Below, piece after piece: positions 27,867 to 43,258 of a stretch of DNA of 64,000 bases. The notes beneath the pieces were generated by a model. The model was given only the letters and a program-made list of their open reading frames with translations, searched no databases and was not told the DNA's origin. The first letter of the stretch is position 1; the number at the start of each line of letters is the position of its first letter. Made by a program: the position numbers and the translations under genes. The DNA comes from Anaeromyxobacter diazotrophicus (GTDB lineage: Bacteria > Myxococcota > Myxococcia > Myxococcales > Anaeromyxobacteraceae), in NCBI RefSeq assembly GCF_013340205.1, contig NZ_BJTG01000003.1, forward strand, positions 496,001 to 560,000, written 5' to 3'.

Positions 27867-28505
27867 GTGCGGGACACCCTGGAGCGGATCGCCGAGGACG
27901 TGACGCGGTGCCGCGCCTGCCCGCGCCTGGTGGCGTGGCGCGAGGAGGTGGCGCGGGTGAAGCGGCGCGCCTACCGCGCGGAGACCTACTGGGGGCGCCC
28001 GGTCCCGGGCTTCGGCGACGCGCCCGCCGCGCTCCTCGTGCTGGGCCTCGCGCCCGGAGCCCACGGCGCGAACCGCACCGGGCGCATGTTCACCGGCGAC
28101 GCCTCGGGCGACTTCCTCTACGCCGCGCTGCACCGCGCCGGGTTCGCCTCGCAGCCCACCTCCGAGCGCCGCGGCGACGGCCTCACCCTGCGCGGCTGCT
28201 ACGTGAGCGCGGCCGCGCGCTGCGCGCCGCCGGACAACGCCCCCTCCGCGGAGGAGCTCGCCCGCTGTGCGCCGTTCCTCGACCGCGAGCTCGCCGCGCT
28301 GTGGCCGCGCGCGATCCTGGCGCTCGGCGCGGTGGCCTGGGAGGCGGCGCTCGGAGCGCTCGCGCGCGCCGGCATCGAGGTGCCGCGGCCGAGGCCGCGC
28401 TTCGCCCACGGCGCGGAGCTCGCGCTCCCGGGCGCGCCGGCGCTGCTCGCGAGCTACCACGTGTGGAGCATGGCACTTTGGCGGCTGCCTGCCTGGCTGC
28501 TGTAG
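27867..28505 (+). pseudogene. udgB: family 5 uracil-DNA glycosylase, 3' end replaced by an integrated element
   Basis: Base-excision-repair glycosylase of the UDGb family. 212 codons now remain. Fe-S cysteines are C15, C18 (CRACP), C119 and C134. Motif 1, GLAPGAHGANRTGRMFTGD, is intact at residues 60-78. The protein matches the family up to ASYH-V (198-199) and then reads VWSMALWRLPAWLL to a stop encoded by the element. The missing end, with the conserved motif SRQNTQTGRLT, is at 42200-42281. Joining 27867-28462 to 42200-42281 gives 678 bases, 226 codons including the stop, all in frame. The present product lacks the second catalytic/DNA-contact motif and is probably inactive or altered. GTG start at 27867. 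Confidence 0.93.
28459..28462 (+). other. attL core (ACGT)
   Basis: Host side GAGCTACC, then ACGT, then element sequence GTGGAGCATGGC. The core covers the end of the His and the start of the Val codon of udgB (CAC GT). As expected for serine integrases the shared core is very short. Confidence 0.85.
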
Positions 28506-28601
28506 GCGAGGAGCGGCCCCGAGCGGCGGACACCCTACGTTGCAGAGGCCCATCTCGCGGCCTTACACTGCGGGTCGCTGCTCGTAGCTACCTAGCCCCG
28601 C

Positions 28602-28643
28602 AACGACCACCAAGCGCCGCAGTTCCTTCCGCTGGAGGTCGTT
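28602..28643 (+). promoter_or_regulatory. hairpin covering the Shine-Dalgarno of the first element gene
   Basis: AACGACC (28602-28608) pairs with GGTCGTT (28637-28643); after an A-A mismatch, CCA-GCG (28610-28616, one bulged A) pairs with CGCTGG (28630-28635). That is a 13-bp stem with a 13-nt loop. The right arm contains GGAGG (28634-28638), the only ribosome-binding sequence before the TTG at 28648. It could therefore repress translation of the operon's first gene, or act as a protein-binding site. Confidence 0.5.
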
Positions 28644-28647
28644 CGCG

Positions 28648-28923
28648 TTGCCGCTCCTGCTCGACACCCGCCACGTCATGCTCGCGCTCGGCTGCGGCCC
28701 TCGGCTCGCGCGCCGGGTCTGCCGTGAGCGTGGCGTGAGGCTCGGGGCGAGGCGGCTCTTTATCGCGAGCGACGTGCTGGATCGCCTTGCCGGCGGTGGG
28801 GTCGGAGGGCGGCTGCCGTCCATCGAGAGCGGCCAGCATACCACTGGCTCCACTGCCGGCCCTTCCATCGACGCGACGCTCTTCGTGGCGCTCGTGCGCG
28901 TGCTGCGAAAGGAGCGCCGATGA
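28648..28923 (+). CDS. small excisionase/HTH-like protein of the element
   Basis: 91 residues from a TTG start with GGAGG ten bases upstream (ATG 28678 is an alternative). Residues about 8-50 (TRHVMLALGCGPRLARRVCR, then LGARRLFIASDVLDRLAGG) have the helix-turn-helix plus wing pattern of excisionase/AlpA-type DNA-binding proteins. It is the first gene of the left operon and close to attL, where a recombination directionality factor or early regulator could sit. Its stop overlaps an ATG (ATGA) that opens a 19-codon ORF. Confidence 0.55.
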   Translation: MPLLLDTRHVMLALGCGPRLARRVCRERGVRLGARRLFIASDVLDRLAGGGVGGRLPSIESGQHTTGSTAGPSIDATLFVALVRVLRKERR

Positions 28924-28979
28924 AGCCTGCTCTTCGACTCGTCCGCCTTCGCCAGGTCCAGCTCGTGAGGAACCGATGA
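28920..28979 (+). CDS. 19-residue coupled micro-ORF
   Basis: ATG 28920 overlaps the preceding stop as ATGA, and the ORF ends in TGA overlapping the ATG of the next gene (28976). The peptide MKPALRLVRLRQVQLVRNR is very basic. Both junctions being ATGA suggests ribosomes pass through it, serving translational coupling rather than a protein function. Expression is unproven. Confidence 0.35.
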   Translation: MKPALRLVRLRQVQLVRNR

Positions 28980-29527
28980 GCGACCACGTCCGAGACGCTG
29001 ACCCCTCGCGTCCGATCGGCTTGATCGCGGACCTCGGCAAGAGGCGCGGTGACACGCCCTGGCACGACGCAGGGATGGACGCCCGCGCGGAGGCGGCGGC
29101 GAGCTACGAGAAGACCTTCGGCCCCGCAGTCGAGCCCATCCAGCCCGCGACGCCGGACACCTCGGGGAAGCTCCGAGCGGAGCTGCTCGTGCAACGCGCG
29201 GCCGTGAGCGTCGAGGCGCAGGTCCCGCTCCTGCTCCACGTCCAGAACGGGCACGAGCACGAGGTCCGGGTCCAGAGCGTCACGCTCCACGCATCGCCCG
29301 CCGGGAGCGCCCAGCTCTCGCATCTCGACTTCTCCGGGCCTGTCCCGCCTCCCGTAGTCGAGCCTGGGGGTGATGCCCACCTCGCGCTCTCGTGCTCCTT
29401 CCTTCACCCGCGCTTCGGCCAGGCTCGCGAGTACGCGGTCGGAGCCAGCGTCCGCTTCACGGACGGCTCGCAGGGCTCGCAGGTCGAGGCCGAGCCCACC
29501 ACCATCACCGTCCGTCCTATCGCGTAA
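28976..29527 (+). CDS. phage-type protein of unknown function, beta-rich C-terminus
   Basis: 183 residues. The first 65 residues are polar and probably disordered; from about 66 the sequence alternates as a beta-sandwich (LRAELLVQRAAVSVEAQVPL, then HEVRVQSVTLHASPAG, YAVGASVRFTDGSQ, TTITVRPIA). That resembles Ig-like or minor virion proteins, but I cannot match a named family. ATG follows AGGAACCG. It is the first sizeable gene of a tightly packed run leading to the large terminase. Confidence 0.6.
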   Translation: MSDHVRDADPSRPIGLIADLGKRRGDTPWHDAGMDARAEAAASYEKTFGPAVEPIQPATPDTSGKLRAELLVQRAAVSVEAQVPLLLHVQNGHEHEVRVQSVTLHASPAGSAQLSHLDFSGPVPPPVVEPGGDAHLALSCSFLHPRFGQAREYAVGASVRFTDGSQGSQVEAEPTTITVRPIA

Positions 29528-29542
29528 GGAGAACCCCATCAC

Positions 29543-29968
29543 TTGCCCGTGAACTTCTCGAACCTCTCCCCAAATCCGCAGCAGTGGCCCACCGCCTTCA
29601 TCCAGCAAGTCGTGGAGATCGACCTCGCGCTCACCGGCCAGGGCGCGAGCGCTCCGCTCTTCGTTCCGCAGAACTTGGGCCTTTCCTCCATCTCGCGCAC
29701 GTCCGCCGGTCTGTACGTGCTGAATTTCGCGTTCGCCTTCGCCTACGGGCTCCTCAACTGCTCGCCCTGCTTCAAGCCGAGCGGCATCGTCCCGGCGAGC
29801 CTCGTGCAGGACGTCGTCGTGGCCGCCGACAACTCGACCAGCACCAGCTCGCCGTCCATCTCGATCCAGGTCGTGGCGAGCACGTCCTCCACGAACCCGA
29901 CCCTCATCGCGGCGGACCTCGCGGCGAACGACGGCCTCCTCCTCACGCTCCGGTTTAAGAGCGGATGA
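29543..29968 (+). CDS. phage-type protein of unknown function
   Basis: 141 residues from TTG 29543 with AAGGAG 11 bases upstream; GTG 29549 is the alternative and is farther from that site. The sequence is neutral, rich in Ser/Thr and beta strands (FIQQVVEIDLALTGQG, LVQDVVVAADNSTST, ISIQVVASTSST), consistent with a structural protein, with a CSPC pair in the middle. No family recognised. Ends by ATGA overlap with the next gene. Confidence 0.6.
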   Translation: MPVNFSNLSPNPQQWPTAFIQQVVEIDLALTGQGASAPLFVPQNLGLSSISRTSAGLYVLNFAFAFAYGLLNCSPCFKPSGIVPASLVQDVVVAADNSTSTSSPSISIQVVASTSSTNPTLIAADLAANDGLLLTLRFKSG

Positions 29969-30153
29969 AGACCTTGAGTGACGCCCACGCAATGACCCGC
30001 TTCATCGAGACGCTCCGTCGCGCATGTTCCTCGTGCCGGGAACGCCTCGGCCTCTCGTACCCGGCAGAAGCTCCCCCCGGGCCGTGTCACCTGTGCCCGG
30101 AACCCGCAGCGACCACCACAGCTTCACAGACGAAGGAGGACAACGTTGGCTGA
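29965..30153 (+). CDS. small zinc-ribbon-like protein
   Basis: 62 residues, start within an ATGA overlap. CSSC and CHLC are 17 residues apart, the spacing of a simple zinc ribbon. The C-terminal third is polar. Its stop lies inside the start region of the following TTG gene (eight-base overlap). Unknown role in the element. Confidence 0.55.
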   Translation: MKTLSDAHAMTRFIETLRRACSSCRERLGLSYPAEAPPGPCHLCPEPAATTTASQTKEDNVG

Positions 30154-30343
30154 CAGGAAGAGTGGGCAGAGCAAGACCGGATTCGCGGACGGCGCCAAGG
30201 ACATCGGGCCGTGGGGTCCGGTCTGCGTCCCGCGCCCTCGCGTCAACATCCCGGACCACGCCACGAGCGACGAGCACGCCGTGAAGCGCGAGCGCGAGAG
30301 CATCCTGCGGCGCGACTACGGCCACACGCCCGGAGGGAAGTAA
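30146..30343 (+). CDS. small basic protein of unknown function
   Basis: 65 residues from TTG 30146 with an excellent AAGGAGGA five bases before it, which decides this start. The sequence (MADRKSGQSKTGFADGAKDI, then GPVCVPRPRVNIPDHATSDE) is polar, without predicted membrane or coiled-coil parts. No family recognised. Confidence 0.6.
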   Translation: MADRKSGQSKTGFADGAKDIGPWGPVCVPRPRVNIPDHATSDEHAVKRERESILRRDYGHTPGGK

Positions 30344-30346
30344 GCC

Positions 30347-31027
30347 TTGGCCGATCCCGGCATCCTTTCCGACCTCGGTGCGAGCCAGGGCGCTCCTGCC
30401 CGCGACTCGGGCGCTTCACCGCCCACAGTCTCGGGCCAGGAGCGGTCAACAGACGAGCATCCTCGCGAGGGCACCGACTTCCGTAGTTGGGAGCGTCGGG
30501 TGAAGGACCCGCTCGGTGGCATCTCCGCGACGCCCGCCGTCGAGCGCAGCGCGGACGACCCCATGCAGCGCGCCAGGGACACGCTCTCCGGGAAGGGGAC
30601 AAGCGCGGCGAAGCGCCATGCGGACCTCGCCCGCCGGGAGGCGACGGTGAAGGCCCAGCGCGAGCAACTGCTGGAGGACGCAACCCGCCTCGCTCAGTTC
30701 GCTCATGCACAGGGGGGCGAGGTGCCTGCGCGACTGGCCGCTGCCGCTCGGGAGATGCAGCAGTCCGAGGACGCCCGCGCCTTCAAGCTCTGGGCCCAGG
30801 ACATCACCGAGAAGGTGAAGGGCTCGCCCGAGTACGAGTTCACGAACCGGGTGGGCGACCCTAGCGAGGTCGCGGCCTACATCAAGGCCACCTGGGAAAG
30901 GACCGGCGGCAAAAAGGCCCTCTCGTGGAAGGAGGCCGCCGCCGAGGTGGAGGCCTTCTACGAAAAGAAGTACCGCGAAGCGTCCCAGACCTCGAAGGCT
31001 CGTCGCATCATGCGGAGTGGCACTTGA
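30347..31027 (+). CDS. phage-type helical protein, possibly scaffold-like
   Basis: 226 residues from TTG 30347, with CGGAGGG ahead of it. The N-terminal third is polar and disordered. Residues about 85-150 are strongly helical and could form a coiled coil (AKRHADLARREATVKAQREQ, LAAAAREMQQSEDARAFKLW). The end (ALSWKEAAAEVEAFYEKKYR) recalls phage proteins encoded near terminases. A scaffold or internal virion role is possible but cannot be shown from sequence. Ends with TTGA overlap into the next gene. Confidence 0.6.
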   Translation: MADPGILSDLGASQGAPARDSGASPPTVSGQERSTDEHPREGTDFRSWERRVKDPLGGISATPAVERSADDPMQRARDTLSGKGTSAAKRHADLARREATVKAQREQLLEDATRLAQFAHAQGGEVPARLAAAAREMQQSEDARAFKLWAQDITEKVKGSPEYEFTNRVGDPSEVAAYIKATWERTGGKKALSWKEAAAEVEAFYEKKYREASQTSKARRIMRSGT

Positions 31028-31410
31028 GCCTCGACGGCCAGGACGCCCCGATGCAGGCCTTCCAGCGGAAGGTCCTCCACGAGCTGGAGCAGCTCGCGCA
31101 GCGTGTGACGCATCTTGAAGACGAGGTCGCGGCGCTCCGTGCCGGCGCCCCACCCGCAGGGCCGCAGCTCGCGCACGTCGTCGCCACGAACCCGCACGCC
31201 ATCCCGGCGACCGCCGTCGCCGCCGCGCGCGCCGCCGCCGCCGCCGAGCACGCTGCAACAGCTCGTGTCGTGCTCGACCCGCCACCCGTAGCGCCGGAGG
31301 CCTTGCCGACATCCCCGTACGGCTTCGGGCTCGGCTCGCGTCCCTTGAACGCCGGCCGCACCGCCGCAGAGCCTCAGGCGCTCCCGGCGCCGTCCAACAC
31401 GGAGAAGTGA
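31024..31410 (+). CDS. small protein with N-terminal coiled coil
   Basis: 128 residues. TTG 31024 overlaps the preceding TGA (TTGA), with GCGGAG six bases before it. Residues about 10-40 (MQAFQRKVLHELEQLAQRVT then HLEDEVAALRAG) form a short leucine-zipper-like coiled coil, followed by an Ala-rich segment and a Pro-rich tail. It could oligomerise with the preceding helical protein. No family recognised. Confidence 0.6.
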   Translation: MSLDGQDAPMQAFQRKVLHELEQLAQRVTHLEDEVAALRAGAPPAGPQLAHVVATNPHAIPATAVAAARAAAAAEHAATARVVLDPPPVAPEALPTSPYGFGLGSRPLNAGRTAAEPQALPAPSNTEK

Positions 31411-31682
31411 TGCCCACCCAGAAGACGCTCGATGATTACCGGGGCCTCGCGATGCCGAAGCTGACCGACGAGGCGATCGAGAAGGCGGTCGAGCGCGCCG
31501 AGGCGATGCGCGAGCTGCACAGCGCCTCCACGCCGTTGTTCCAGCCGACCGACACGCCCTACGCCCGTGCGCGGCGGGTGATCGACATGCACCGCGCCCT
31601 CGACGCGGAAGCCGCGCCGCTCGACGGAGAGGACCTCACGAAGTTCCTGGCGCCTGCCCCAAAGCCGAAGAAGGAGGGTTGA
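31410..31682 (+). CDS. phage-type protein of unknown function
   Basis: 90 residues. ATG 31410 shares its A with the TGA before it (TGATG), with GGAGAAG just upstream; an in-frame GTG three bases earlier is also possible. The protein is helical (LTDEAIEKAVERAEAMRELH, ARARRVIDMHRALDAEAAPL). No family recognised. It belongs to the coupled run ahead of terL. Confidence 0.6.
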   Translation: MPTQKTLDDYRGLAMPKLTDEAIEKAVERAEAMRELHSASTPLFQPTDTPYARARRVIDMHRALDAEAAPLDGEDLTKFLAPAPKPKKEG

Positions 31683-31919
31683 TTGTCTTTCGCTGATTTC
31701 ATGAAGGCCAAGGAGAACCGAGAGGCCGCTCCGAAGGACGAGCCGGATGAGCGCGAGAGCGCCGGCCGCGACCTCGCGTCGGACCTGATCGACGCGATCA
31801 AGTCGGGCGATGCGGCCGGCGTCGTGGATTCCTTGCGGGCGCTCATGGCAACCATGGCACCTATGCCCGACAGTGAACCGAGCGACGGCGGCGAGCCGGA
31901 TGGGGACGAGGGCCCGTAG
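31683..31919 (+). CDS. small acidic protein of unknown function
   Basis: 78 residues from TTG 31683 directly after the preceding stop; AAGGAGGG lies four to five bases upstream, so TTG is well supported. MSFADFMKAKENREAAPKDE at the start, a helical middle (LIDAIKSGDAAGVVDSLRAL) and a strongly acidic tail (SEPSDGGEPDGDEGP). No family recognised. Confidence 0.6.
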   Translation: MSFADFMKAKENREAAPKDEPDERESAGRDLASDLIDAIKSGDAAGVVDSLRALMATMAPMPDSEPSDGGEPDGDEGP

Positions 31920-31920
31920 C

Positions 31921-32133
31921 TTGGCCTACGTGGACCGCTGCCTCTGTTCCTCTTGTCGCGCGGGCCGCACCAGGGCGCCCACGGCCGCCTCGTGGCGCAA
32001 GGGCGGGAAGCGTCGGTTCCCAGCCTTCGTCGCTGCCGCTGCCGGTGAGCGCGGCCCCTGCGACTGCGGACACGAGCCTCATACGCGCAGTGGATGCCTC
32101 GTCCCGGGCTGCGCTTGCCGGGAGCCGCGCTAG
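31921..32133 (+). CDS. small Cys-rich, probably zinc-binding protein
   Basis: 70 residues from TTG 31921, which follows the previous TAG by one base; GAGGG is eight bases away. Cysteines come in pairs (CLCSSC near the start; CDCGH, then CLVPGCAC near the end), suggesting one or two small zinc sites. The middle is basic (ASWRKGGKRRF). Such mini-proteins are common in phage genomes. It ends two bases before the proposed terL start. Confidence 0.5.
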   Translation: MAYVDRCLCSSCRAGRTRAPTAASWRKGGKRRFPAFVAAAAGERGPCDCGHEPHTRSGCLVPGCACREPR

Positions 32134-32135
32134 AG

Positions 32136-33755
32136 TTGCCCCGCGACCGGCTCGGCAAGCTCTCGACCCAGCTCGACGCTCTCGCTCACGGCGCGAGCCG
32201 TCCTGCGCCCACCACCGAGGAGCGCCCGGGACGGCCTGACCTGCTCGCGGACTGCCCCGAGCCCCAGCGTCACTTCATCCTCGACCCGAGCACGCTCAAG
32301 GTCGCCTTCTGCACGCGCAGAGCGGGAAAGAGCATGGCGGTCGCCATCGCGATGATCGTGGACAGCTTCGACCACCCTCGCGCCCACTACACCATCCTCG
32401 GAATCGCCAGGGGCGACCTGCGGGACAACTACTGGGACCCGATCTTCAAGGAGCTTGACCAACGGTACGCGCTTCACGCTACGTTCAATGAGTCGTCGTT
32501 GTCGATGACCATGCCGAACGGGGCCACGATCCGGCTCGTCGGGGCAGACACTTCACAGAAGGAGCACCGCAAGCTCCTGGGCGGCAAGAAAAGGGCCGTG
32601 GCCGTGGATGAATGCCAGGCCTTCGGGACCGACTTGCGCGAGCTTGTTTACGGGGTGTTGAAGCCCTCCGTGGCGGACTACAACGGCACGGTCGTGTGCG
32701 TCGGCACCCCGAGCAACAACCTCGTGGGCTTCTTCCACGACCTCACGAGGGGTTGCGAGGCCGGGAAGCCTGGGCCCGCCGGAATGCGTGAACCGGGTTG
32801 GTCGCTTGCGACGTGGAGCACCTCGCAGAACACGGCCCTCGTGGATGGCGAGAGGATGTGCGACCGCTTCGCCAGGGAGATTGCCCAGCTCCGGGCTGCG
32901 AACGAGTTCATCGAGGAGGTGCCCTGGTTCCGCCAGAACTACCTGGGCCAGTGGGTGGTCGAGACTGACGCCAGGTGCTACCGCTTCGACCCCGACAAGA
33001 ACGTCTTCGACGGGACGCTCCCGGAGTTCGAGGCGGGCAGGTGGCACTACACGCTCGCCTTCGACGTGGGCTTCTTCCCGGATGCTTGCGCCTTCTCTGT
33101 CAGTGCATATCACGACTTCGACGGGCGGCTGTTCTACGTGGAGAGCTGGAAGGCCTGGAGACTCGACATCACGGACGTGGCCGAGAAGGTAAAGGCCTAC
33201 CAGAAGCGGTACGACTTCGACTCGATCGTGCTCGACGGGTCGAACCTGCAGCTCGTGGAGGAGCTGCGCCGACGTCACGACCTGCCTCTCGTCTGCGCGA
33301 AGAAGCCCGACAAGGGGACCTGGATCGACCTCTTCAACGCGGAGTGCATCGCCGGCCGCATCAAGTTCGACCTGAGCCTCTGCAACCAGGGCGTCCACAA
33401 GGGCTACGACCCGGCCCACCCGAGCGCGGTGCAGGAGTCACTCTCCGTGGCGGACGAGTACGCCGGCCTGATCTGGAACGAGCGCAAGCTTCGGGAGACG
33501 GGGAAGCGCGAGGAGCTGGCGAGCTGCCCGAACCACTTGGCCGACTCCTGCCTCTACAACTTCCGGCACACCTTCCAGTACCTCGCGACCCCCGAGCCGA
33601 AGCGCGCGAAGATGGGCACGAAGGCCTGGTTCGACCAGCACGCCGAGGAGGAGTGGCAGCGCGAGATGGACGAGATGAACGAGCGCCTCGACGGGGAGCG
33701 CCGAGGCTTGGAGGACGTGGACCCCGGCAACATCGACCCCAGGTTCATCCATTGA
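32136..33755 (+). CDS. terL: phage terminase large subunit
   Basis: 539 residues from TTG 32136. The ATPase motor has a Walker A variant CTRRAGKS (Lys near 65) and Walker B AVAVDECQ (D158, E159). TIRLVGADTSQKEHRKLLGG is the helicase-like coupling segment typical of TerL. The nuclease (RNase H-like) half starts with LAFDVGFFPDACAF (Asp near 310), continues through SIVLDGSN, and ends in a region with NHLADSCLYNFRHT, which supplies a third acidic residue. It is complete by length and motifs. No small terminase, portal or capsid gene accompanies it, which is unusual. Its stop overlaps the next start as TTGA. Confidence 0.9.
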   Translation: MPRDRLGKLSTQLDALAHGASRPAPTTEERPGRPDLLADCPEPQRHFILDPSTLKVAFCTRRAGKSMAVAIAMIVDSFDHPRAHYTILGIARGDLRDNYWDPIFKELDQRYALHATFNESSLSMTMPNGATIRLVGADTSQKEHRKLLGGKKRAVAVDECQAFGTDLRELVYGVLKPSVADYNGTVVCVGTPSNNLVGFFHDLTRGCEAGKPGPAGMREPGWSLATWSTSQNTALVDGERMCDRFAREIAQLRAANEFIEEVPWFRQNYLGQWVVETDARCYRFDPDKNVFDGTLPEFEAGRWHYTLAFDVGFFPDACAFSVSAYHDFDGRLFYVESWKAWRLDITDVAEKVKAYQKRYDFDSIVLDGSNLQLVEELRRRHDLPLVCAKKPDKGTWIDLFNAECIAGRIKFDLSLCNQGVHKGYDPAHPSAVQESLSVADEYAGLIWNERKLRETGKREELASCPNHLADSCLYNFRHTFQYLATPEPKRAKMGTKAWFDQHAEEEWQREMDEMNERLDGERRGLEDVDPGNIDPRFIH

Positions 33756-34252
33756 GGCCCGGCCCGTTCACGCGCTCGTGCGCCACGCGCCAGCTCATGG
33801 CGCTCCACGAAAGCGGGCACGCCGCCACCATCACGACCTTCGGCGGCAGGGTCCCCTCGGTCCATGTGAAGCCGACCGGTGGGCTCACGCGCTGGCGAGG
33901 GGACCTCTCGCGCGAGCAGCACGCGGTCATCGCCCTGAGCGGTTACGCGAGCGAGGAGGCTCACGGGGGGATCTATCTCGGCCCCGTGGAGGAGGGCCTG
34001 CGCCGCTTCCACACGGGGTACATCGGCAGGGACGACCTCACGCGGGTCCTCGGCCTGGCCGTCACCGAGGAGATGGTGCGGCCCGCCCTTCGCGAACTGG
34101 AGCGCCTCTACGGGCTCGCGTTCGATCTCGTGCAGCGCCTCGGGCCGGTCATCCTGCCCATCGCTGCGCGCCTGATGGAGGTCGATCGCCTTCATGGCGA
34201 GGAGCTGGCCGAGCTGCTCCAGCCCGAGGAGGCACAGTGTCGTTCCGCGTGA
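33752..34252 (+). CDS. stand-alone FtsH-peptidase-like (M41-type) protein
   Basis: 166 residues. TTG 33752 overlaps the terL stop; ATG 33797 is a shorter alternative. LMALHESGH (H19, E20, H23) is a zinc-protease H-E-x-x-H site. The order of later segments follows the FtsH peptidase domain: SGYASEEAHGG (FtsH GGRAAEEIIFG) and YIGRDDLTRVLGLA (FtsH TGAQNDLERVTKLA), which supplies the third Asp ligand. There is no AAA ATPase or membrane anchor. In a phage setting it could be a maturation protease or act on a host regulator; neither is shown. It overlaps the next gene by 16 bases. Confidence 0.7.
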   Translation: MRPGPFTRSCATRQLMALHESGHAATITTFGGRVPSVHVKPTGGLTRWRGDLSREQHAVIALSGYASEEAHGGIYLGPVEEGLRRFHTGYIGRDDLTRVLGLAVTEEMVRPALRELERLYGLAFDLVQRLGPVILPIAARLMEVDRLHGEELAELLQPEEAQCRSA

Positions 34253-35208
34253 GGCGCGAAGCCAAGACCCACTTCGTCGCGGTCGGGAACGATGGGCGCG
34301 AGTTCACCATCGCGAAGGGCGGGCTCCGCTCTGCGACCGAGGAGCGTCTCCGCTCCCTTCTCGCTGATGATGATGACGAGGACGACGAGGAGCGGGGCTA
34401 CGCCGAGGGCGGCCGAGTGGGCAGCGCCGTGGACGACTACGCGCTCGTGAAGGCGAAGGAAGCGCTCGATTCCGACGACGACGACGAGGACGAGGACCCG
34501 GACGACCGGGACGAGAAGCAGTTCCTGAAGGACATGGCCCTCGGCGCGCTCCTCGATGTGGGCGGGCTCGCGCACGGTGGACAGGTCCGCCGCCGCTTCG
34601 ATGTCGGCGGCCCGGTCCAGGACGACGACCAGAGCCCCGCGCAGCTCGCGCTCACGGCGAGTGGACTCCCGAATCCCGTGCCGGCCGCACCCAAGGTCGC
34701 GGGCCAGGTCGCGTCGCAGCTCTACCAGCAGACCGCCCCGGACCGGGACTCGCTCGCGGCCCAGGCCGTCGCAGGGCTCACGGCGCTCCTGAAGAGGCGC
34801 GACTACGAGCAGAGCCTTGCGCAGGTGAACCAAGTCCTTCCTGCAGAGACTCGGTACGGGCCAACGCAGCTCGCTCGGCAGATGGGCATGACGACCGCGC
34901 TCGGCCCGGTCGCGAGCAAGCTCTCGCCGGTGATGCTTCAGACGGTGAAGCGGTTCTCGGAGCGGCTCGGTGTCCCACTGGAGGTGATCGCGCAGCACTG
35001 GTTTCCCGGAGGCGGGGAGGCGGTCGGGAGCACCGCGCAGCAGCTCGCGGGAGCCGGTCGAGAGGTGGCGCTCGACCAGGCGAAGGACGCGGCCCGGAGT
35101 GCCGTGACCGAGCCGCAGGGCGAGTACCAGGGCGGCCCGGTGCGGCGATGGGACGGCGCCTCGGGCTACGCCGCCGCGCAGGGCACGTACTCCAGGAACC
35201 GGCGCTAG
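34237..35208 (+). CDS. acidic protein with GG motifs, probable internal virion or ejected protein
   Basis: 323 residues from GTG 34237 with GAGGAGG upstream. Two Asp/Glu runs (DDDDEDDEERG; DSDDDDEDEDPDDRDE) are followed by GYAEGGRVG, LAHGGQVRRRF and FDVGGPVQDD. Short aromatic-x-x-GG-x-V motifs of this sort recur in phage proteins found near virion genes and may be anchoring or cleavage sites. From about 135 onward the chain is helical and Ala/Gln-rich (LAAQAVAGLTALLKRRDYEQ), with QGEYQGGPVRRW near the end. I do not recognise a named family. It ends on the same CTAG palindrome as the opposing RHH gene. Confidence 0.6.
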   Translation: MSFRVRREAKTHFVAVGNDGREFTIAKGGLRSATEERLRSLLADDDDEDDEERGYAEGGRVGSAVDDYALVKAKEALDSDDDDEDEDPDDRDEKQFLKDMALGALLDVGGLAHGGQVRRRFDVGGPVQDDDQSPAQLALTASGLPNPVPAAPKVAGQVASQLYQQTAPDRDSLAAQAVAGLTALLKRRDYEQSLAQVNQVLPAETRYGPTQLARQMGMTTALGPVASKLSPVMLQTVKRFSERLGVPLEVIAQHWFPGGGEAVGSTAQQLAGAGREVALDQAKDAARSAVTEPQGEYQGGPVRRWDGASGYAAAQGTYSRNRR

Positions 35209-35411
35209 CCCTTCCGGCTGCGGAGCCAGAGGTCGAGAGCCTCGCGGACGACCACGCTCGCGTCCGCCCGGAACTGCCCAGCGGCCTCGGCCCTCTTCAC
35301 CGCCTCCAGGATCACCGCGTCGTACTGCTGGGTCGTGACGCTCGCCGTGAGCTTCACGAAGCCCGACCTGGGGCCGACCCGCTTCGCGGCGTGGGGCTTC
35401 TTCAGGGCCAT
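35205..35411 (-). CDS. ribbon-helix-helix DNA-binding protein
   Basis: 68 residues. A basic N-terminus (MALKKPHAAKRVGPRSG) precedes FVKLTASVTTQQYDAVILEA and a second helix, DASVVVREALDLWLRSRKG, the strand-helix-helix pattern of CopG/Arc-type repressors. It is the only minus-strand gene between the two plus-strand modules, reading away from the intergenic region with TAACTAG repeats, so it is a good candidate repressor of the divergent operon starting at 35545. Confidence 0.7.
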   Translation of the reverse strand: MALKKPHAAKRVGPRSGFVKLTASVTTQQYDAVILEAVKRAEAAGQFRADASVVVREALDLWLRSRKG

Positions 35412-35469
35412 GGCTCCAGCCTAACGCTCTCTCTTCAGCCGGTCGATTTCCCGTCTCTTGCCACTTCCG

Positions 35470-35512
35470 TAACTAGGGACCAGCGTTCCAGTTATCGGCG
35501 ATCAGTAACTAG
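35470..35512. promoter_or_regulatory. paired TAACTAG repeats, candidate operator
   Basis: TAACTAG at 35470-35476 and 35506-35512, 36 bases apart, both preceded by G (GTAACTAG). The segment between has CCAGTTATCGG. They sit in the 133-base gap between the divergent RHH gene and the 35545 gene. A third copy, TAACTAGT, is at 39242-39249. The motif is AT-rich in a GC-rich setting, so chance recurrence is less likely. RHH binding is an inference. Confidence 0.45.
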
Positions 35513-35544
35513 TAACCAGACACAACGCCGGCAGGAGGCAGCAC

Positions 35545-35793
35545 ATGAAGCGGAAGACGAAGGTGGCGAGCCTCGCGGACCAGATCATCGCCTACGAGGA
35601 CGGCGAGCTGGACGACGGCAGGACCGTGGCGCTGTTCCAGCGGCTCGTGGACACGGGCCTGGCCTGGCAGCTCCAGGGGCACTACGGGCGGACCGCGCTC
35701 GCCTACCTGAACGCGGGCTTGGTTCACCCGGCGGAAGCAGCGGACGTTCTCATGATGGGCACCGCGCCAGTCGCGAAGGAGGGCGAGTCATGA
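35545..35793 (+). CDS. conserved small phage protein
   Basis: 82 residues with GCAGGAGGCAGC upstream of the ATG. The sequence LADQIIAYEDGELDDGRTVA followed by LFQRLVDTGLAWQLQGHYGR is the hallmark of a small protein found across many tailed-phage genomes, function unknown. This supports a phage origin for the middle module. It overlaps the lipoprotein gene by ATGA. Confidence 0.7.
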   Translation: MKRKTKVASLADQIIAYEDGELDDGRTVALFQRLVDTGLAWQLQGHYGRTALAYLNAGLVHPAEAADVLMMGTAPVAKEGES

Positions 35794-36458
35794 AGCGCAT
35801 CGAGACGTGGAGGCAGAACGCGGCGGAGCACGGCGTGCGGACGGCTGACCCGCCCGCCAGGCTGAACTGGAAGACGGTCGTCCTCACGGTCGCGCTCTCG
35901 GCCATCATCGGCGCCATCATCGGGTGCGGCGGTAGCGCCACCACGCCCACGGGTGGCGGCACGGCCACGGTCAGGCTCACGGCGACGATCTCGCAGGGCC
36001 TCTCTGGACCGCAGGACCCGAAGGCTCTCTCGGTCCCGACCGACATCGCGAGCGTGAGGCTCACCGTCACGGGCCCGAACATCGCCGGGAGCGTCGTGCA
36101 GACCATGACCAAGGTCGATGCGACGCACTACAGCGCCACGGTCACCGTGCCGGACGGCGGGCTCGACCACTTCCTCGCTGAAGCGCTCGCGAGCGACGGG
36201 ACGACCGTCATCTACAGCGGCTCGGCGGACTCCCAGATCGTGGGCGGGAACAGCTCGAACATCTCCATCCTGCTCCGCGAGACGAACCCGCCCACCGGCC
36301 CGAGCACGAGCGACTGCGGCTCGGTGAGCCCGAGCACGGGCGCGAGCGTGAGCTACTTCAACGCGAACACCGCCTCGGTCTGCCACATCACCGCCCTCGC
36401 GAGCGACACGGGCGGCGCGACCACGACCGGCACGATCGTCGTCGCAGGAAGGCCGTGA
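35790..36458 (+). CDS. element-encoded lipoprotein
   Basis: 222 residues from ATG 35790. A long polar n-region (29 residues) precedes a hydrophobic core and lipobox AIIGC with Cys46. The mature part is rich in Thr, Ser and Gly and looks like one or two beta-sandwich repeats (TATVRLTATISQGLSG, VPTDIASVRLTVTGPNIAGS, SNISILLRETNPP), with a C-terminal segment containing two cysteines. A surface lipoprotein expressed from a prophage is often a superinfection-exclusion or adhesion factor; that role is an inference. It overlaps the next gene at TGATG. Confidence 0.7.
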   Translation: MKRIETWRQNAAEHGVRTADPPARLNWKTVVLTVALSAIIGAIIGCGGSATTPTGGGTATVRLTATISQGLSGPQDPKALSVPTDIASVRLTVTGPNIAGSVVQTMTKVDATHYSATVTVPDGGLDHFLAEALASDGTTVIYSGSADSQIVGGNSSNISILLRETNPPTGPSTSDCGSVSPSTGASVSYFNANTASVCHITALASDTGGATTTGTIVVAGRP

Positions 36459-36691
36459 TGGGCACGGCTACGAAGCTCGACGCGCTCCTCCACCCCGCGA
36501 GGACGGCCGCGCTCTCCATCACCCGCACCAGCGAGGGGCTAGTGGGGCTCGACCTGCAGCGCGTCCCCGGTGGGCGCTGGGAGCGCATCGACCTCTCGCC
36601 CGAGGAGGCGACCAGGGTCGGGATGCTCCTCCTCAAGTCCGGGATCTGGCTCCTCGGTGAGCGGGTCGGGGAGACGAGCGAGCGCGGGTAG
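36458..36691 (+). CDS. small protein of unknown function
   Basis: 77 residues from ATG 36458 (GTG 36455 is possible). The middle reads as a small alpha-beta fold: AALSITRTSEGLVGLDLQRV then RWERIDLSPEEATRVGMLLL and a hydrophobic end (SGIWLLGERVG). No family recognised. It is the last gene before a strong hairpin. Confidence 0.55.
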   Translation: MGTATKLDALLHPARTAALSITRTSEGLVGLDLQRVPGGRWERIDLSPEEATRVGMLLLKSGIWLLGERVGETSERG

Positions 36692-36707
36692 TCCATGCGT
36701 CTACTGA

Positions 36708-36745
36708 CAGCGTGAGGGCGGGCCTTACGTTGCCGCCTCACGCTG
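36708..36745 (+). terminator. strong hairpin, terminator or operator
   Basis: CAGCGTGAGGGCGG (36708-36721) pairs with CCGCCTCACGCTG (36733-36745) with one bulged base and an 11-nt loop. It lies between the 36458 gene and the peptidase gene at 36775. The following CGTCTTCTTCAG is pyrimidine-rich but not a clean T-tract. It could end the 35545 transcript or lie in the 36775 leader. Confidence 0.5.
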
Positions 36746-36774
36746 CGTCTTCTTCAGTGAGGGGTCTTCGCGGA

Positions 36775-37314
36775 ATGGGTGACATCAGGAAGAGACTGCG
36801 GCACACCGCCTACCATGAGGCCGGCCACGCCGTGGCGAGCTTCTTCTTGGGCTGCGGGAACAAGTACCTGACGATCGTGCCGGACAAGGAGCAGGGCTCT
36901 ATCGGCCATCACGTCGGCGTCCCGACCGGGAAGTGGTTTCAGCCCGACGTCTATTCGGACGGGAAACACCGGAACAAGGTCGAGGCCCGCGTCATGGTGC
37001 TGTACGCGGGGGCCATCGCGGAATCGCTGGCACAAGGTCGCAAGCCACGGCTCCGGTCGGGGTCGCGATCCGACAGCGCCGCCGCCGCCGATCTGGCGAG
37101 CTACGTTGTGGGCTCGGGCGAGGAGTGGGGGGCGTACCTCGATTGGCTCTTCATCAGGGCCACGGGCTTCCTCCGGTCCCCCTTCCGCTGGCGCGCCGTC
37201 GAGGTGGTGGCCGAGGCGCTCCTCGCGAAGCGAACGCTCAAGGGCCGCGAGGTCCGCGAACTGATCCGAGGGAGCCTCCCGGCCCTGCCCCTGGTCCAAG
37301 CCAACGCGGTGTAG
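36775..37314 (+). CDS. second stand-alone FtsH-peptidase-like protein
   Basis: 179 residues from ATG 36775 (GAGGGGTC about ten bases upstream). YHEAGHAVASFFLGCGNKYL starts with the zinc site H14-E15-x-x-H18, identical to the FtsH consensus HEAGH. MVLYAGAIAESLAQG matches the A-E-E region, and SRSDSAAAADLASYVV can supply the Asp ligand. As with the 33752 gene there is no ATPase domain and no membrane helix. Sequence similarity between the two is limited to these motifs. A terminator-like hairpin follows at 37338. Possible roles are cleavage of a repressor or antitoxin, or of a host protein; none is shown. Confidence 0.72.
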   Translation: MGDIRKRLRHTAYHEAGHAVASFFLGCGNKYLTIVPDKEQGSIGHHVGVPTGKWFQPDVYSDGKHRNKVEARVMVLYAGAIAESLAQGRKPRLRSGSRSDSAAAADLASYVVGSGEEWGAYLDWLFIRATGFLRSPFRWRAVEVVAEALLAKRTLKGREVRELIRGSLPALPLVQANAV

Positions 37315-37337
37315 TTGAGCAACTGCGACCGCAGGTA

Positions 37338-37372
37338 AGGACGGCTCTATCTCTCCAGGTAGGGCCGTTCCT
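37338..37372 (+). terminator. probable intrinsic terminator after the peptidase gene
   Basis: AGGACGGCTCTA pairs with TAGGGCCGTTCCT across TCTCTCCAGG, allowing G-T pairs. It lies 24 bases after the peptidase gene stop. The downstream CTCTATCCC is only moderately T-rich. Confidence 0.5.
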
Positions 37373-37485
37373 CTATCCCACCCAGCCGACCGCCCGACAC
37401 GTTGACCGTCAGTCTTTTCAGGCCCGGAAGGGTGGACGATGCGCCCGCCTGCGGGGTGGCAGGTCCGCTCGCTATCGTTCCCGTC

Positions 37486-37764
37486 ATGGTCACTAACAGC
37501 AAGAGCCCCAGCCCGATTCGAGAGGCCCGCCTCGCGCGTCGCTGGTCGCAGATGGAACTCGCCGTCCGAGCCGGCCTCGGCATGGTCACCGTGTGCAACG
37601 CCGAGAAGTTCCCGGGCTCGGCCACGGAGCGCACGATCTTCCGGTGCGCGGCGGCGCTGGGGGTCACTCCCGCGAGCCTCGTGCCCACCCGCGCCACCAC
37701 CACGGAGCCCATCGCGAGCGCGTCGCCCACCGCCACGCCCGCGTTGCCCATCGAGCCCGAGTAG
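37486..37764 (+). CDS. XRE-family helix-turn-helix regulator
   Basis: 92 residues from ATG 37486. IREARLARRWSQMELAVRAG then MVTVCNAEKFPGSATERTIF and RCAAALGVTPASLVPTR form a Cro/CI-type HTH domain, with the R-W-S-Q-x-E-L-A recognition start. The C-terminus is a short Thr/Ala/Pro tail, so no cleavable dimerisation domain is present. It is a candidate lysogeny or replication switch protein directly upstream of the initiator-like gene. Confidence 0.7.
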   Translation: MVTNSKSPSPIREARLARRWSQMELAVRAGLGMVTVCNAEKFPGSATERTIFRCAAALGVTPASLVPTRATTTEPIASASPTATPALPIEPE

Positions 37765-37836
37765 AAATGGAAGCCCGGCGCCCGCTGGAGAACGGGGCCG
37801 GGCCGGAGGATCACATGCACTGCGAGGCACAGGTGA

Positions 37837-38253
37837 TTGCCGGATTCTAAGCTCCACATCGTTACACCGCAACGCGCGCCGTCTTCGACCACAGCGACCC
37901 CGCGCGTCTGGATCGACATCGCGGCCTTCAACGCGGCGATGGACGTCGTGACGCCGGGCCCGTACAAGCAGCTCACCCCCCTGGAGCGCGTCATCTTCTA
38001 CCGCATCGCCGCTCGTGCCGACGGGCAGGGCGTCGTGGCGGTCCCCTCCATGCGAGGACTCGCGCGCGACCTGAACGTGCCACGGACCACACTGGATGGC
38101 GTCCTCGCCCGAGGCCGGTACATCCGCCTTCTCTCCGTGGAAGACCCGAAAGAGCGGCCAGGATCGCGGCCACCTTGTGGCGAGAAGAGCGGCCACCCCA
38201 GAATCATGATCACGTTCCTATGCCCCAGCGCTTTTCGGGTTCTCTCACCGTAA
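37837..38253 (+). CDS. HTH replication-initiator-like protein
   Basis: 138 residues from TTG 37837 (the reading frame opens only there). The centre, YKQLTPLERVIFYRIAARAD then VAVPSMRGLARDLNVPRTTL and DGVLARGRYIRLLS, is a winged-helix fold of the kind found at the N-terminus of phage replication proteins (O/DnaD-like). The last 40 residues are encoded by DNA containing iterons and are low in recognisable structure. Position before an iteron cluster, as in lambda O, supports a replication role; I cannot exclude a plain transcription factor. Confidence 0.55.
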   Translation: MPDSKLHIVTPQRAPSSTTATPRVWIDIAAFNAAMDVVTPGPYKQLTPLERVIFYRIAARADGQGVVAVPSMRGLARDLNVPRTTLDGVLARGRYIRLLSVEDPKERPGSRPPCGEKSGHPRIMITFLCPSAFRVLSP

Positions 38254-38300
38254 AGAGCGGCCACACATACAGTCAAGGAGCGGCCAGGTTTGCGGCCACC
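38151..38300 (+). repeat. iteron cluster, candidate replication origin
   Basis: AGAGCGGCCA occurs at 38151-38160, 38186-38195 and 38254-38263, with GGAGCGGCCA at 38277-38286. The first and last are parts of a larger near-repeat, GAGCGGCCAGG-ATC-GCGGCCACC versus GAGCGGCCAGG-TTT-GCGGCCACC. An AT-richer palindromic stretch (GAATCATGATCACG) lies between. The cluster covers the 3' end of the initiator-like gene and about 50 bases beyond. Confidence 0.6.
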
Positions 38301-38303
38301 CTG

Positions 38304-38779
38304 CGCGGTAGTCCACGATGTGTTCTCGCGCGCGCGCCGAAGTACAGGAGCCCGCTCAAGGGGGCCTCGACGGCCGGCCCCCTCGCTGCCGCTCACCCCT
38401 CGGCCGTTTCTGGTCGCCTCGCTCTGCTCGGCTCGGGCCTCTCCGGTCCTCGCTGCGCTGCGGTCCTCGCGGGTCTTCACGTGTTGGGCGTGAGCCGGTG
38501 CCGGACTAGTGCTGCCGTTAGTCTGGGCTCTAGTCCGCCAGGTAGCAGCCGCTCTCGTACACGTACAGACCGAACCGCGTAGTTCGCGGCAGCATGCGAA
38601 CGGAGCGGGGCGGCATGAGCGGAGCGCAGCGCAGCGACCAGCCCCACGCAGTGGTCCGGGGTGGAGGGGCTGGACAGGCCCCCCGAGGACGCCGCCCCTT
38701 GGAACGCGCGCGCGAGCACGGCACTGAGGGTGACCCGGACCCATGGTAACTGGGCTCCGATGTCGCTAGAATCCACCCC
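38304..38779. other. non-coding region rich in dyads
   Basis: No convincing gene. Hairpin AGGGGGCC/GGCCCCCT at 38359-38383; CGGTCCTCGC twice (38445-38470 area); TCGCTGCGCTGCG (38450-38462) is an exact inverted copy of CGCAGCGCAGCGA (38625-38637), about 160 bases apart; GTTCGC/GCGAAC near 38582-38600. Just before the next gene is TAGAAT (38767-38772), a fair -10 box that would place the transcript start at or next to the GTG of 38780. Next to iterons, the region could be part of an origin, a packaging site or a structured RNA. Confidence 0.45.
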
Positions 38780-39055
38780 GTGGACCTCGTACCTCAGGAG
38801 CCCGGACAGCAGAAGGAGCCTGCGACGCAGGTGAAGAAGCGCGGCCGCGTGCTTCGGAGCCCCGAGAACCTGCGCCAGCTCGTCGCCAGCCAGATCCGCG
38901 CCGTCGAGCGCAGTGAGCTGTCCGTCGAGAAGAAGGCCCGCCTGCTGACCCCTCTCGCGAAGGAGCTGCGAGAGGCGATCATGCTCGTAGACCGAATCGA
39001 CCAGATCGAGGCGAAGCTCAGGCTCCTCCAGCAGCAGCGCGCCTCCGGGCGCTGA
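38780..39055 (+). CDS. small basic helical protein
   Basis: 91 residues from GTG 38780 with no ribosome-binding sequence; a TAGAAT box ends eight bases before it, so it may be made from a leaderless message. The chain is basic then helical (KKRGRVLRSPENLRQLVASQ, LREAIMLVDRIDQIEAKLRL), possibly a coiled coil with a DNA-binding head. Size and composition would suit a small terminase subunit, but there is no diagnostic motif, so I make no functional call. Confidence 0.55.
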   Translation: MDLVPQEPGQQKEPATQVKKRGRVLRSPENLRQLVASQIRAVERSELSVEKKARLLTPLAKELREAIMLVDRIDQIEAKLRLLQQQRASGR

Positions 39056-39414
39056 GCGCTCCCGCTGCCCCGCCCTGAGGCGATCGGCAGCGAGTCAGTG
39101 GGACGGGGCGGGTCGCAGCTCTGAAGCGCCAGAAGCGAACCTGGAGCGCCGGCCGTAAGCGAACGTTGCCCTCGCGTCCGGCTGCGTTAGGGCTGCCATG
39201 GCTCTGCGGGCCTTCCGGAAGCCCCAGAGCCTGTCGCGACCTAACTAGTGAGAGTTCCTCAGCTCACGCTCGCAGCGTCAGGTGCCACGAGTCGAACCTG
39301 ACGCTGGCGGCGCAAGGGGCGGGACTCTGGCGCCGGGGAAGCGAGCGGTGTCGGACCCGCCTGCTAGGCTCCTGTACGCCCGAGCAGGCAAACGGGCGAA
39401 CAGGGGGAACTACC
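39056..39414. other. intergenic region with two hairpins
   Basis: No gene seen. A long hairpin at 39200-39231 (GGCTCTG/CAGAGCC outer arms, GGG/CCC and CTT/AAG inside, loop CCGG) may terminate the 38780 gene. TAACTAGT at 39242-39249 is the third copy of the operator-like motif. An exact 11-bp inverted repeat, CAGCGTCAGGT/ACCTGACGCTG, lies at 39273-39306. These probably form the control region of the 39415 operon. Confidence 0.5.
39273..39306. repeat. exact inverted repeat, candidate operator
   Basis: CAGCGTCAGGT (39273-39283) and ACCTGACGCTG (39296-39306), 12 bases apart, about 110 bases before the 39415 gene. Could be a repressor site or hairpin. Confidence 0.5.
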
Positions 39415-39669
39415 ATGTCGGCAGTCGCTACCGGGCAGCAGGTCATCAGTGGTCCCGTCGCCACGAACGTCTTCGCCTACGAGGAGAGGACTCGCCAGGA
39501 GGTGTTCATCAACGTCGCGATGGCCTCCGTGCCGCGCGTCGGGGAGATGGTGCAGGTCGTCAACGACGTGACCGGCCAGCAGCAGCGCTACACGGTCAAG
39601 CAGGTTCTGTGGATTCCACGCGAGCACAAGGCGGTGCTGGACCTGCACCTCTTGGCCTGGGGCTCGTAG
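39415..39669 (+). CDS. small protein of unknown function
   Basis: 84 residues, ATG with GGGGGAAC upstream. It looks like a small beta-barrel: TRQEVFINVAMASVPRVGEM, VQVVNDVTGQQQRYTVKQVL, AVLDLHLLAW. No family recognised. First gene of the accessory group between the non-coding region and the integrase. Confidence 0.6.
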   Translation: MSAVATGQQVISGPVATNVFAYEERTRQEVFINVAMASVPRVGEMVQVVNDVTGQQQRYTVKQVLWIPREHKAVLDLHLLAWGS

Positions 39670-39672
39670 ACC

Positions 39673-40029
39673 ATGGGAGCCACCTGTAGCTGTGAGCGGT
39701 CGGCCGAGGGGAAGACCGAGAACCATGTGGACGGCACCGTCACGTTCCACACCTTCGCCGGCTGCCCGCGCGTGAAGCCCTGCGAGCACATCAAGAAGCA
39801 GTCGGACGTCAGCCTCGTCGGGCCGGATGGCCGCTGCACGAAGTGCTCGACACTGCACTGCAAGGCGCCCGGGTGCGGCAAGGACCTGCGGCGCCAGGGC
39901 CAGGAGCTGGAGCTGAAGAGCCCCATCCTCTGCCCGCACTGCGGTGCCGAGAACGTGCTCCAGATATCCGGAGCCCGCGGCTCGGGGGGTGCTGTCTCGG
40001 TGCTTCGGGCGCAAAGGCCGAAGGAGTAG
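39673..40029 (+). CDS. zinc-ribbon protein
   Basis: 118 residues, four bases after the preceding stop. Eleven cysteines, including C-S-C near the start, CTKCSTLHCKAPGC and CPHCGAENVLQI, indicate one or two zinc ribbons separated by a His-containing segment (CEHIKKQSDV). Likely nucleic-acid or protein binding. No family recognised. Confidence 0.6.
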   Translation: MGATCSCERSAEGKTENHVDGTVTFHTFAGCPRVKPCEHIKKQSDVSLVGPDGRCTKCSTLHCKAPGCGKDLRRQGQELELKSPILCPHCGAENVLQISGARGSGGAVSVLRAQRPKE

Positions 40030-40070
40030 CAGGCCCCAGAGCGTCAGGGTCAGAGCGCACTGTTCGACTC

Positions 40071-40652
40071 ATGGCAAGGTCGCGGGTCAAGCTGCCCGAA
40101 AAGGAAACCGAGTTCATCGAGCTGTTCCGCGCCGAGACGGACAGGGCGGCCGGGGTACTCGCCGTCAGTTACCTGGAGGCGAAGCTCGACCAGACGCTCA
40201 GGACCTGGTTCCTCGACTGCAGCGAGATGAATAGGGTTCTCGGCAGCTTCAGCGCGAAGGTAGACCTGGCGTTCGGCATGGGGCTGCTCAAGAAGCACCA
40301 CGCCGCCGACCTCCGCAGTCTGGGCGAGATTCGCAACCGCTTCGCCCACCATGTGCTGGAGTCGAACAGCTTCGACGTGAAGCCTATCCGCGACCTCATC
40401 CTCGACCTCTCGCTCACGAAGTTCTGGAAGGGGAAGCTGCCGAAGGATGAGTTCGAGAAGACGTCGCTGCGCGGGCTGTACCTGATGGCGGTTCGCTTCA
40501 TCTTGCTCGCGCTCGATGACGTTCGACTCGCGCGAAGGACCGACGAGCAGGTCCGTGAAGACGTTCACCGGATCCGAGAGAGTCGCAAGCCCATCGACCC
40601 CCTGATGGTGATCGGAGCCCTCCGTCGCATAGCTGGAGGGAAAGGCTCCTGA
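40071..40652 (+). CDS. MltR/DUF4145-like helical protein with HEPN-type motif
   Basis: 193 residues from ATG 40071. VLGSFSAKVDLAFGMGLLKK followed by SLGEIRNRFAHH matches the MltR (mannitol regulator) / DUF4145-type pattern; R-N-R-F-A-H-H is an R-x4-6-H motif as used by HEPN RNases. Helical throughout, no DNA-binding domain evident. Such proteins occur in sugar regulation and in defence islands. Here it sits last in the accessory group, 25 bases from the convergent integrase, so a defence or toxin-like function is plausible but unproven. Confidence 0.62.
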   Translation: MARSRVKLPEKETEFIELFRAETDRAAGVLAVSYLEAKLDQTLRTWFLDCSEMNRVLGSFSAKVDLAFGMGLLKKHHAADLRSLGEIRNRFAHHVLESNSFDVKPIRDLILDLSLTKFWKGKLPKDEFEKTSLRGLYLMAVRFILLALDDVRLARRTDEQVREDVHRIRESRKPIDPLMVIGALRRIAGGKGS

Positions 40653-40677
40653 GAGCGCGTGTGCCGCGCGGTCCCGA

Positions 40678-42156
40678 CTACGGCCGCCTCGCCGTCACGG
40701 TCCCGTCCGGCCGGAGGTAGAGCGGCTGGCCCTGGAGGAGAAGCTCCAAGGTCTTCCGCCAGGCCTCCGGGTCCGCACCCTTCCGGCGGCGCAGGAACCT
40801 CGCGCTCCGGCGGACGTCCGCGAACCGGACCTTCTCGGCTCTCGCCCTCGCCTCGCGCTGCTCGACGGAGAGGGAAGCCTGAGCGAGGCGCGACTCCACC
40901 TCGCGCCTCTCCTTCGCGACCTCCGCGAGCATCTTGTCGGCGGTCTCGTCCTCGAGTAGCTGGGCGTCGTTCCGGCGCTGGATCCGCTCCGCCTTCGCAC
41001 GTAGCTCGCCCATGCGCTTCTCGCAGGAGAGCTTCTCGCTCTCGTAGTCGATGGGCTCCCCCTGCTCGCGGCCCTCCTCATCGAAGATGAAGCGCTGGTT
41101 CTTCGGGTCCGCGAACATGGCGATGATGCGCTCCTCGACCAACTCGTCCACCTTCGGGACCGCGTGGAAGCGGCGGCAGGCGGGCTCGGGGCGCCGAGCG
41201 CAGACGTAGTAGAGCCTCGACTTCCGGCCCTTCCGCGCGCTGTCCTTCGTCCACCTCACGTGGACGGGACCGCCGCAGACGGCGCACTTCACGAGCTTCT
41301 GGAGGATGGCGCCCGACTTGCGGGGCGGTCCGCCGAGGCGGGTCGAGTGCTCCGTGAGCGCGACCTGGGCCTTCTCCCAGGTCTCACGGTCCACGATGGG
41401 CGGGCACTGGATCTCGATGCCCTCGCGCGTCATGACCCCGTAGGCGCTCGCGTCCTTCAGCAGCCTCGACGTGTGGCCCGCGCTCCACTTCACGCCGCCC
41501 GGCGTCGGGATGCCCCGCGCGTTCAGGTCCCGCGCGATGGAGCGCTGGCTCTCGCCCGCGAGGACGCGATCGAAGAGGGACTTGTAGACGGCGCGCTTCT
41601 CCTCGTCGTAGCCCCACGTCCCCTTCTCGACGTCCCAGGTCCGGCCGTAGGCCGCTCGGTACGGACGGCCAGCCCTCGCTGCCTGGAGCTTCCCGGCGGT
41701 CGTCCTGGCGCGGATGAGGTTTCGTTCGCGGTTCGCCATGGAGCCCTTCAAGCCCAGCATGAGGTCGCCGTCGTCGGTCGCGGGGTCGAACTCGCCCCCG
41801 TCCGCCTCTACCACCTTCGCGCCCGCCTCCGCGATGGCGTCGATGATGAGTCCTCTCTCGGCCCGGAGCGGCGTCCTCTGGACGCGGTCCCAGCGCTGGA
41901 CGCGCAGCTCATCGAAGGCGCGCTCACGGGCGAGCTGGAGGAGCTTCTGGAGGTCCGGGCGCTCCGCGAGGCGGAGGGCGCCCGAGACGGCGCGCGGCTC
42001 CTGGAGCGTCGCGACGCAGACCCCGGCGCGTCCCTGCGCGAGGCGGTCGAGCGCGGCTCGCTGCTGGGCTGGGGTGTCCTTGTCGTACTGCGTCTGGCCG
42101 GAGACGCGGATCACTTCCACGTACCGCACGGCCGTCGCTGGAGCTGGGGAGGCCAT
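40678..42156 (-). CDS. int: large serine recombinase (integrase)
   Basis: 492 residues. The resolvase catalytic domain (about 11-155) has the nucleophile in RVSGQTQ (Ser19). The recombinase domain follows (SQRSIARDLNARGIPTPGGV, WSAGHTSRLLKDASAYGVMT), then a zinc ribbon (KCAVCGGPVHVRWT, then YYVCARRPEPAC) and a coiled coil at about 370-440 that controls direction in this class. It starts 40 bases inside attR. A TTGACA box (42185-42190, reverse complement) lies between attR and the start, so its promoter is within the element's end. It is intact and probably inserted the element in udgB. Confidence 0.93.
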   Translation of the reverse strand: MASPAPATAVRYVEVIRVSGQTQYDKDTPAQQRAALDRLAQGRAGVCVATLQEPRAVSGALRLAERPDLQKLLQLARERAFDELRVQRWDRVQRTPLRAERGLIIDAIAEAGAKVVEADGGEFDPATDDGDLMLGLKGSMANRERNLIRARTTAGKLQAARAGRPYRAAYGRTWDVEKGTWGYDEEKRAVYKSLFDRVLAGESQRSIARDLNARGIPTPGGVKWSAGHTSRLLKDASAYGVMTREGIEIQCPPIVDRETWEKAQVALTEHSTRLGGPPRKSGAILQKLVKCAVCGGPVHVRWTKDSARKGRKSRLYYVCARRPEPACRRFHAVPKVDELVEERIIAMFADPKNQRFIFDEEGREQGEPIDYESEKLSCEKRMGELRAKAERIQRRNDAQLLEDETADKMLAEVAKERREVESRLAQASLSVEQREARARAEKVRFADVRRSARFLRRRKGADPEAWRKTLELLLQGQPLYLRPDGTVTARRP

Positions 42157-42195
42157 GCCCTACACCTAACCACCGTGGTCAACCTGTCAAGTCAG

Positions 42196-42199
42196 ACGT
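42196..42199 (+). other. attR core (ACGT)
   Basis: Element side GTCAAGTCAG, then ACGT, then host CTCCCGCCAGAACACG, which resumes the udgB frame as V-S-R-Q-N-T. Confidence 0.85.
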
Positions 42200-42281
42200 C
42201 TCCCGCCAGAACACGCAGACCGGCCGGCTCACCCCCGCCATGTTCGACGCGGTGGTGCGGCGGGTCGCGCGGCTTCGGTGA
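42200..42281 (+). pseudogene. udgB: displaced 3' end of udgB
   Basis: Encodes SRQNTQTGRLTPAMFDAVVR followed by RVARLR and TGA at 42279-42281. This is the C-terminal motif and helix of family 5 uracil-DNA glycosylases. It has no start signal and is separated from the front half by the element. Its perfect frame and lack of mutations suggest a recent or reversible insertion. Confidence 0.93.
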
Positions 42282-43074: not shown

Positions 43075-43258
43075 GCGCGACGCAGCTCCGTGAGCGACGG
43101 GCCGGCTCCCACCGGGGGAGGCCGGCCCGGCCGTTTCGCGGCCGCCAGCATCGTCCGCCCTACGGCCCCCTCGTCCGCCGGGCGGGCCGGCCGCGCCGGG
43201 CGCATCGCGCTGGTTGCGGCCTGAGCGCGCTGGCACGCGCGCTGCTCTCCCCGGCCGC

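Follow-up and report, generated by a model that had tools for sequence, protein, structure and literature searches.

A phage-like element with a large serine integrase splits the uracil-DNA glycosylase gene udgB in Anaeromyxobacter diazotrophicus

Phages and islands that carry a large serine integrase can insert into protein-coding genes, as exemplified by Listeria A118 in comK. To our knowledge, nearly every intragenic site-specific insertion allows precise restoration of the host gene on excision, and restorability is therefore not evidence of regulation. A DNA-repair gene is the target in Streptococcus pyogenes, where the chromosomal island SpyCIM1 occupies the 5' end of mutL, excises with growth phase and causes a measured mutator phenotype (PMC4689407). 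We describe here a phage-like element in udgB, which encodes a family 5 uracil-DNA glycosylase (UDG). The element lies in a stretch of 64,000 nucleotides from A. diazotrophicus that is called the window below. Its core is very short, its attB is coding sequence and both parts of the host gene are kept, as in other large-serine-integrase elements in coding genes such as A118. In contrast to these, the target is udgB, a full phage gene set is not recognised, and regulated excision is not in evidence here. With SpyCIM1 it shares the small size, the phage-like character and the interruption of a repair gene. However, it sits at the 3' end of its target, and it is known here from sequence alone. 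A literature search of open-access texts found no paper on a phage integrated in a gene for uracil-DNA glycosylase.

The udgB reading frame as it stands (27867-28505, plus strand) encodes a 212-aa protein of the UDG superfamily (PF03167, E 5.9e-25). Host residues 1-199 end in LLASYHV and are followed by 13 element-encoded residues, WSMALWRLPAWLL. The 26 missing codons are found intact at 42201-42278, just past the element. Including the stop codon, this detached 3' end (42201-42281, plus strand), which encodes SRQNTQTGRLTPAMFDAVVRRVARLR, is the only family 5 motif-2 sequence in six frames of the whole window. At the left junction, the attL core ACGT lies at 28459-28462, and the same four bases recur as the attR core at 42196-42199, directly 5' of the detached motif-2 sequence. 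A 4-bp repeat alone is trivial by chance, but the exact missing C-terminus of UdgB sits 13.7 kb away at this repeat. Thus, the insertion is real, and its boundaries are right to within four bases. When the flanks are joined at the common ACGT, a single 225-aa UdgB frame without stop results, of which residues 7-224 align with Thermus thermophilus UDGB (2d3y, E 5e-68). Identity to eight myxobacterial UdgBs is 60-72%. The family 5 enzyme of Thermus (2d3y, 2ddg, 2dem, 2dp6) is a full-length homologue of the rejoined protein, including SYHVSRQNTQTGRLT, but is intact in its host. Full-length similarity to this characterised enzyme, together with the H-V-S-R-Q-N-T block, places the rejoined frame in family 5, while in the frame as it stands the block after His-Val is gone. 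The short common core and the restoration of the host gene by flank joining identify the intervening DNA as an integrated mobile element with attL and attR. The preliminary description had correctly stated that the 3' part of udgB is unmutated and that precise excision would give back the full-length protein: both parts are free of stops and frameshifts. It had also recognised the truncation through motif 2, yet its count of 27 residues replaced by 14 new ones has to be corrected to 26 and 13, since Val199 is common to both versions. Dyad symmetry in attP has its best-supported centre within ACGT at GT (13/25, nominal P 0.005, one of 12 tests), which lends weak support to GT as the crossover centre. 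As both attB and attP can be deduced to within four bases, they could be of use as tools for integration in myxobacteria of very high GC content.

The element comprises 13,737 bp (28459-42195) with a GC content of 68.7%, compared to 75.3% in the rest of the window. Its integrase gene (40678-42156, minus strand) starts about 40 bp from attR. The 492-aa product has an N-terminal Resolvase, a Recombinase and a zinc ribbon domain (PF00239, PF07508 and PF13408, all above cut-off), lies within the length range of about 450-600 aa of large serine integrases and matches the integrase group PHROG 95 (E 1e-70). It is full length with conserved residues and looks intact. A TTGACA hexamer at 42185-42190 (minus strand) lies inside the attP arm, about 29-34 bp 5' of the integrase start codon. 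A consensus promoter scan around this start returned no full promoter; if the hexamer were part of a real one, the integrase could regulate its own transcription at attP. Further element genes encode a terminase large subunit (32094-33755, plus strand; PHROG 2, E 3.6e-23) and an HTH_3 repressor-like regulator (37402-37764, plus strand). By its integrase, terminase and repressor-like protein, the element is phage-like. With a length of only 13.7 kb and none of its genes recognised by family matches as encoding capsid, portal, tail or lysis proteins, it could be defective or else a satellite. Comparison of the element DNA with a phage collection gave no match. We also noted an M41-like (FtsH-type) peptidase domain protein at 36712-37314 (PF01434, E 3.7e-10), which is unusual for so small an element of phage type; A. 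oryzisoli (L060) encodes a weak homologue near the integrase.

A related element is present in another genome of the host family (G022). The two share the terminase (39-41% identity), and a protein without assigned function (28976-29527, plus strand) has a counterpart there with 51% identity over 59 residues. The 91-aa product of the left-end reading frame (28648-28923, plus strand) matches no family, but the G022 element encodes a homologue at its end; as a guess, the 91-aa protein is possibly a DNA-binding or excision protein. The G022 element, at about 4524300-4537700 of contig C1, is about 13-14 kb long and likewise carries no recognisable capsid genes. Elements of this type are possibly small phages or satellites of a family not yet described from Anaeromyxobacteraceae. 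The G022 element carries a tyrosine integrase, and attachment site and element body thus appear to be exchanged independently. This suggests a family of small terminase-bearing elements with an exchanged integration module.

We consider it highly probable that the locus arose when the element integrated site-specifically, in the ordinary way, at a conserved coding motif of udgB and that the loss of UdgB is collateral. The element's own large serine integrase would catalyse recombination at the ACGT core, within the DNA that encodes SYHV/SRQNT. The gene would be hit because this conserved sequence holds the attB of the integrase, and not through evolution of the element towards control of repair. 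On this account, motif 2 of udgB would join the coding sequences in which serine integrases have their sites. The detached 3' end being intact, full-length UdgB could still be restored precisely, and this counts against collateral loss. However, a segment of only 81 bp is not expected to have decayed if the insertion is recent. A sub-case, not exclusive of such an integration, is that the element is fixed and has lost the ability to excise, with udgB becoming a pseudogene. This is a possibility of some substance, although we judge it rather doubtful. Phage functions and an excision factor would have been lost, and a size of 13.7 kb with terminase and repressor but no recognisable capsid, portal, tail or lysis gene would fit such decay. 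The full-length integrase with its conserved residues and the two undamaged parts of udgB argue against it, and the similar size of the G022 element suggests that about 13-14 kb may be normal. Moreover, excision factors are often not recognisable from sequence. The element may well be able to excise.

Truncation very likely abolishes UdgB activity. In family 4 UDG, the His of motif 2 is critical for catalysis (PMC5387724). The preliminary description had listed motif 2 as lost. Its His198 stays in the truncated protein, but its surroundings do not: the rest of the block, S-x-Q-N-T-x-T-G-x-L-T, and the C-terminal segment are gone. This block is invariant or nearly so in nine aligned UdgBs. That a truncated UdgB with its new tail is still functional, making the insertion neutral, is improbable. 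His198 and the N-terminal motifs are kept, but WSMALWRLPAWLL has no resemblance to the lost end, and all relatives read in detail as well as 2d3y keep the lost block.

Loss of UdgB would be tolerated, since the cell retains other UDGs. The host genome encodes three further members of the superfamily: a family 4 enzyme (TIGR00758, 213.6 bits, cut-off 125.3), UdgX (TIGR03914, 276.5 bits, cut-off 190) and a more divergent protein below both cut-offs. The earlier remark that there is no second UDG in the window holds as worded, but not for the genome. Of 24 genomes of the host family, 22 have a family 4 UDG, whereas UdgB is found in only 8, this genome counted. No match to UdgB was obtained in several genomes with completeness scores of 98-100%, hence absence of UdgB is common in the family. 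The other three genes may buffer the effect of its loss. In Mycobacterium tuberculosis, however, mutation rates after deletion of only udgB, with Ung present, were higher by about 4-fold for rifampicin, 22-fold for isoniazid and 9-fold for ciprofloxacin (PMC8011731), and redundancy may therefore not hide a cost here either. The preliminary description had proposed to look for other UDG families and had named a redundant UDG masking any effect among the outcomes that would refute the switch; the three genes, including a clear family 4 enzyme, bear on such masking unless UdgB has a role of its own, as it is reported to have in M. tuberculosis.

A search of Myxococcota found 100 UdgB-bearing genomes, and in only one of these is the site occupied. 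Among the other 99 matches, 98 run through the site, while the last covers only residues 8-142 and ends short of it. The 29 other relatives that were read residue by residue have an uninterrupted udgB at this position. In two genomes (G004 and G019), relatives of the integrase are encoded at a distance of about 11 kb from udgB; a link was rejected, as udgB is intact in both. Searches of viral contigs with UdgB and the integrase recovered four distant integrases and no provirus at udgB. An integrase 38-41% identical to the one described here sits in A. terrae SG22 within a DUF763 gene, which is split in two at profile position 62-63 around a common CACTC. As in udgB, the insertion lies inside a conserved coding motif, but the target gene, whose function is not assigned, and the content of the element differ (L057/L061). 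On the SG22 contig (L057, 4382-13640), the serine integrase belongs to an element of about 8 kb, and the split DUF763 gene adjoins udgX. The DUF763-udgX pair is intact in the genome of the window (L002). An integrase beside a UdgX gene in genome G020 was considered as an udgX insertion and rejected, since the gene that it occupies is the adjacent DUF763 gene. Most simply read, conserved coding motifs serve this group of integrases as attachment sites, and what the disrupted gene does is incidental.

These findings bear on the regulatory role that the preliminary description had suggested. In this active lysogeny, the element would excise and reintegrate with growth or DNA damage and thereby turn repair by UdgB on or off, in the manner of SpyCIM1 at mutL (PMC4689407). 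An exactly restorable udgB with an intact 3' end, an intact-looking integrase and a small phage-like element speak for such a switch, and mutL offers a precedent. We nevertheless regard it as very improbable. The attB pattern occurs nowhere else in the genome's own assembly, the attP pattern has no match in viral contigs, and none of the element proteins was recognised as an excision factor. A recurrent association of element and udgB would support a switch, although it is not strictly required, and none of the 99 other loci is shown interrupted. The related integrase splits an unrelated gene, the related terminase element also lies outside udgB, and the genome holds other UDGs. The element probably has no regulatory role. 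Were the proposal true, it would imply an inducible change of the mutation spectrum in an Anaeromyxobacter relative and the first case of active lysogeny at a uracil glycosylase, and regulated excision would add another repair gene besides mutL to those controlled by mobile elements; the present data do not point there. An assembly or misjoin artefact has only the draft state (17 contigs) in its favour and is barely credible, as both junctions lie inside one 580-kb contig, the boundary coincides with the integrase gene and the common core, and the completeness and contamination scores of the genome are 100% and 0.07%.

The neighbourhood of the element is one of DNA repair and recombination. 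Downstream of the detached udgB end (42430-45850) follow genes for a small outer-membrane-type protein and a ComM-like ATPase (43214-44773), and a gene at 44819-45850 that we take, from its sequence, to be recA. Further along the window, at 59654-60394 (plus strand), an HhH-GPD base-excision glycosylase with the iron-sulfur motif of endonuclease III is encoded.
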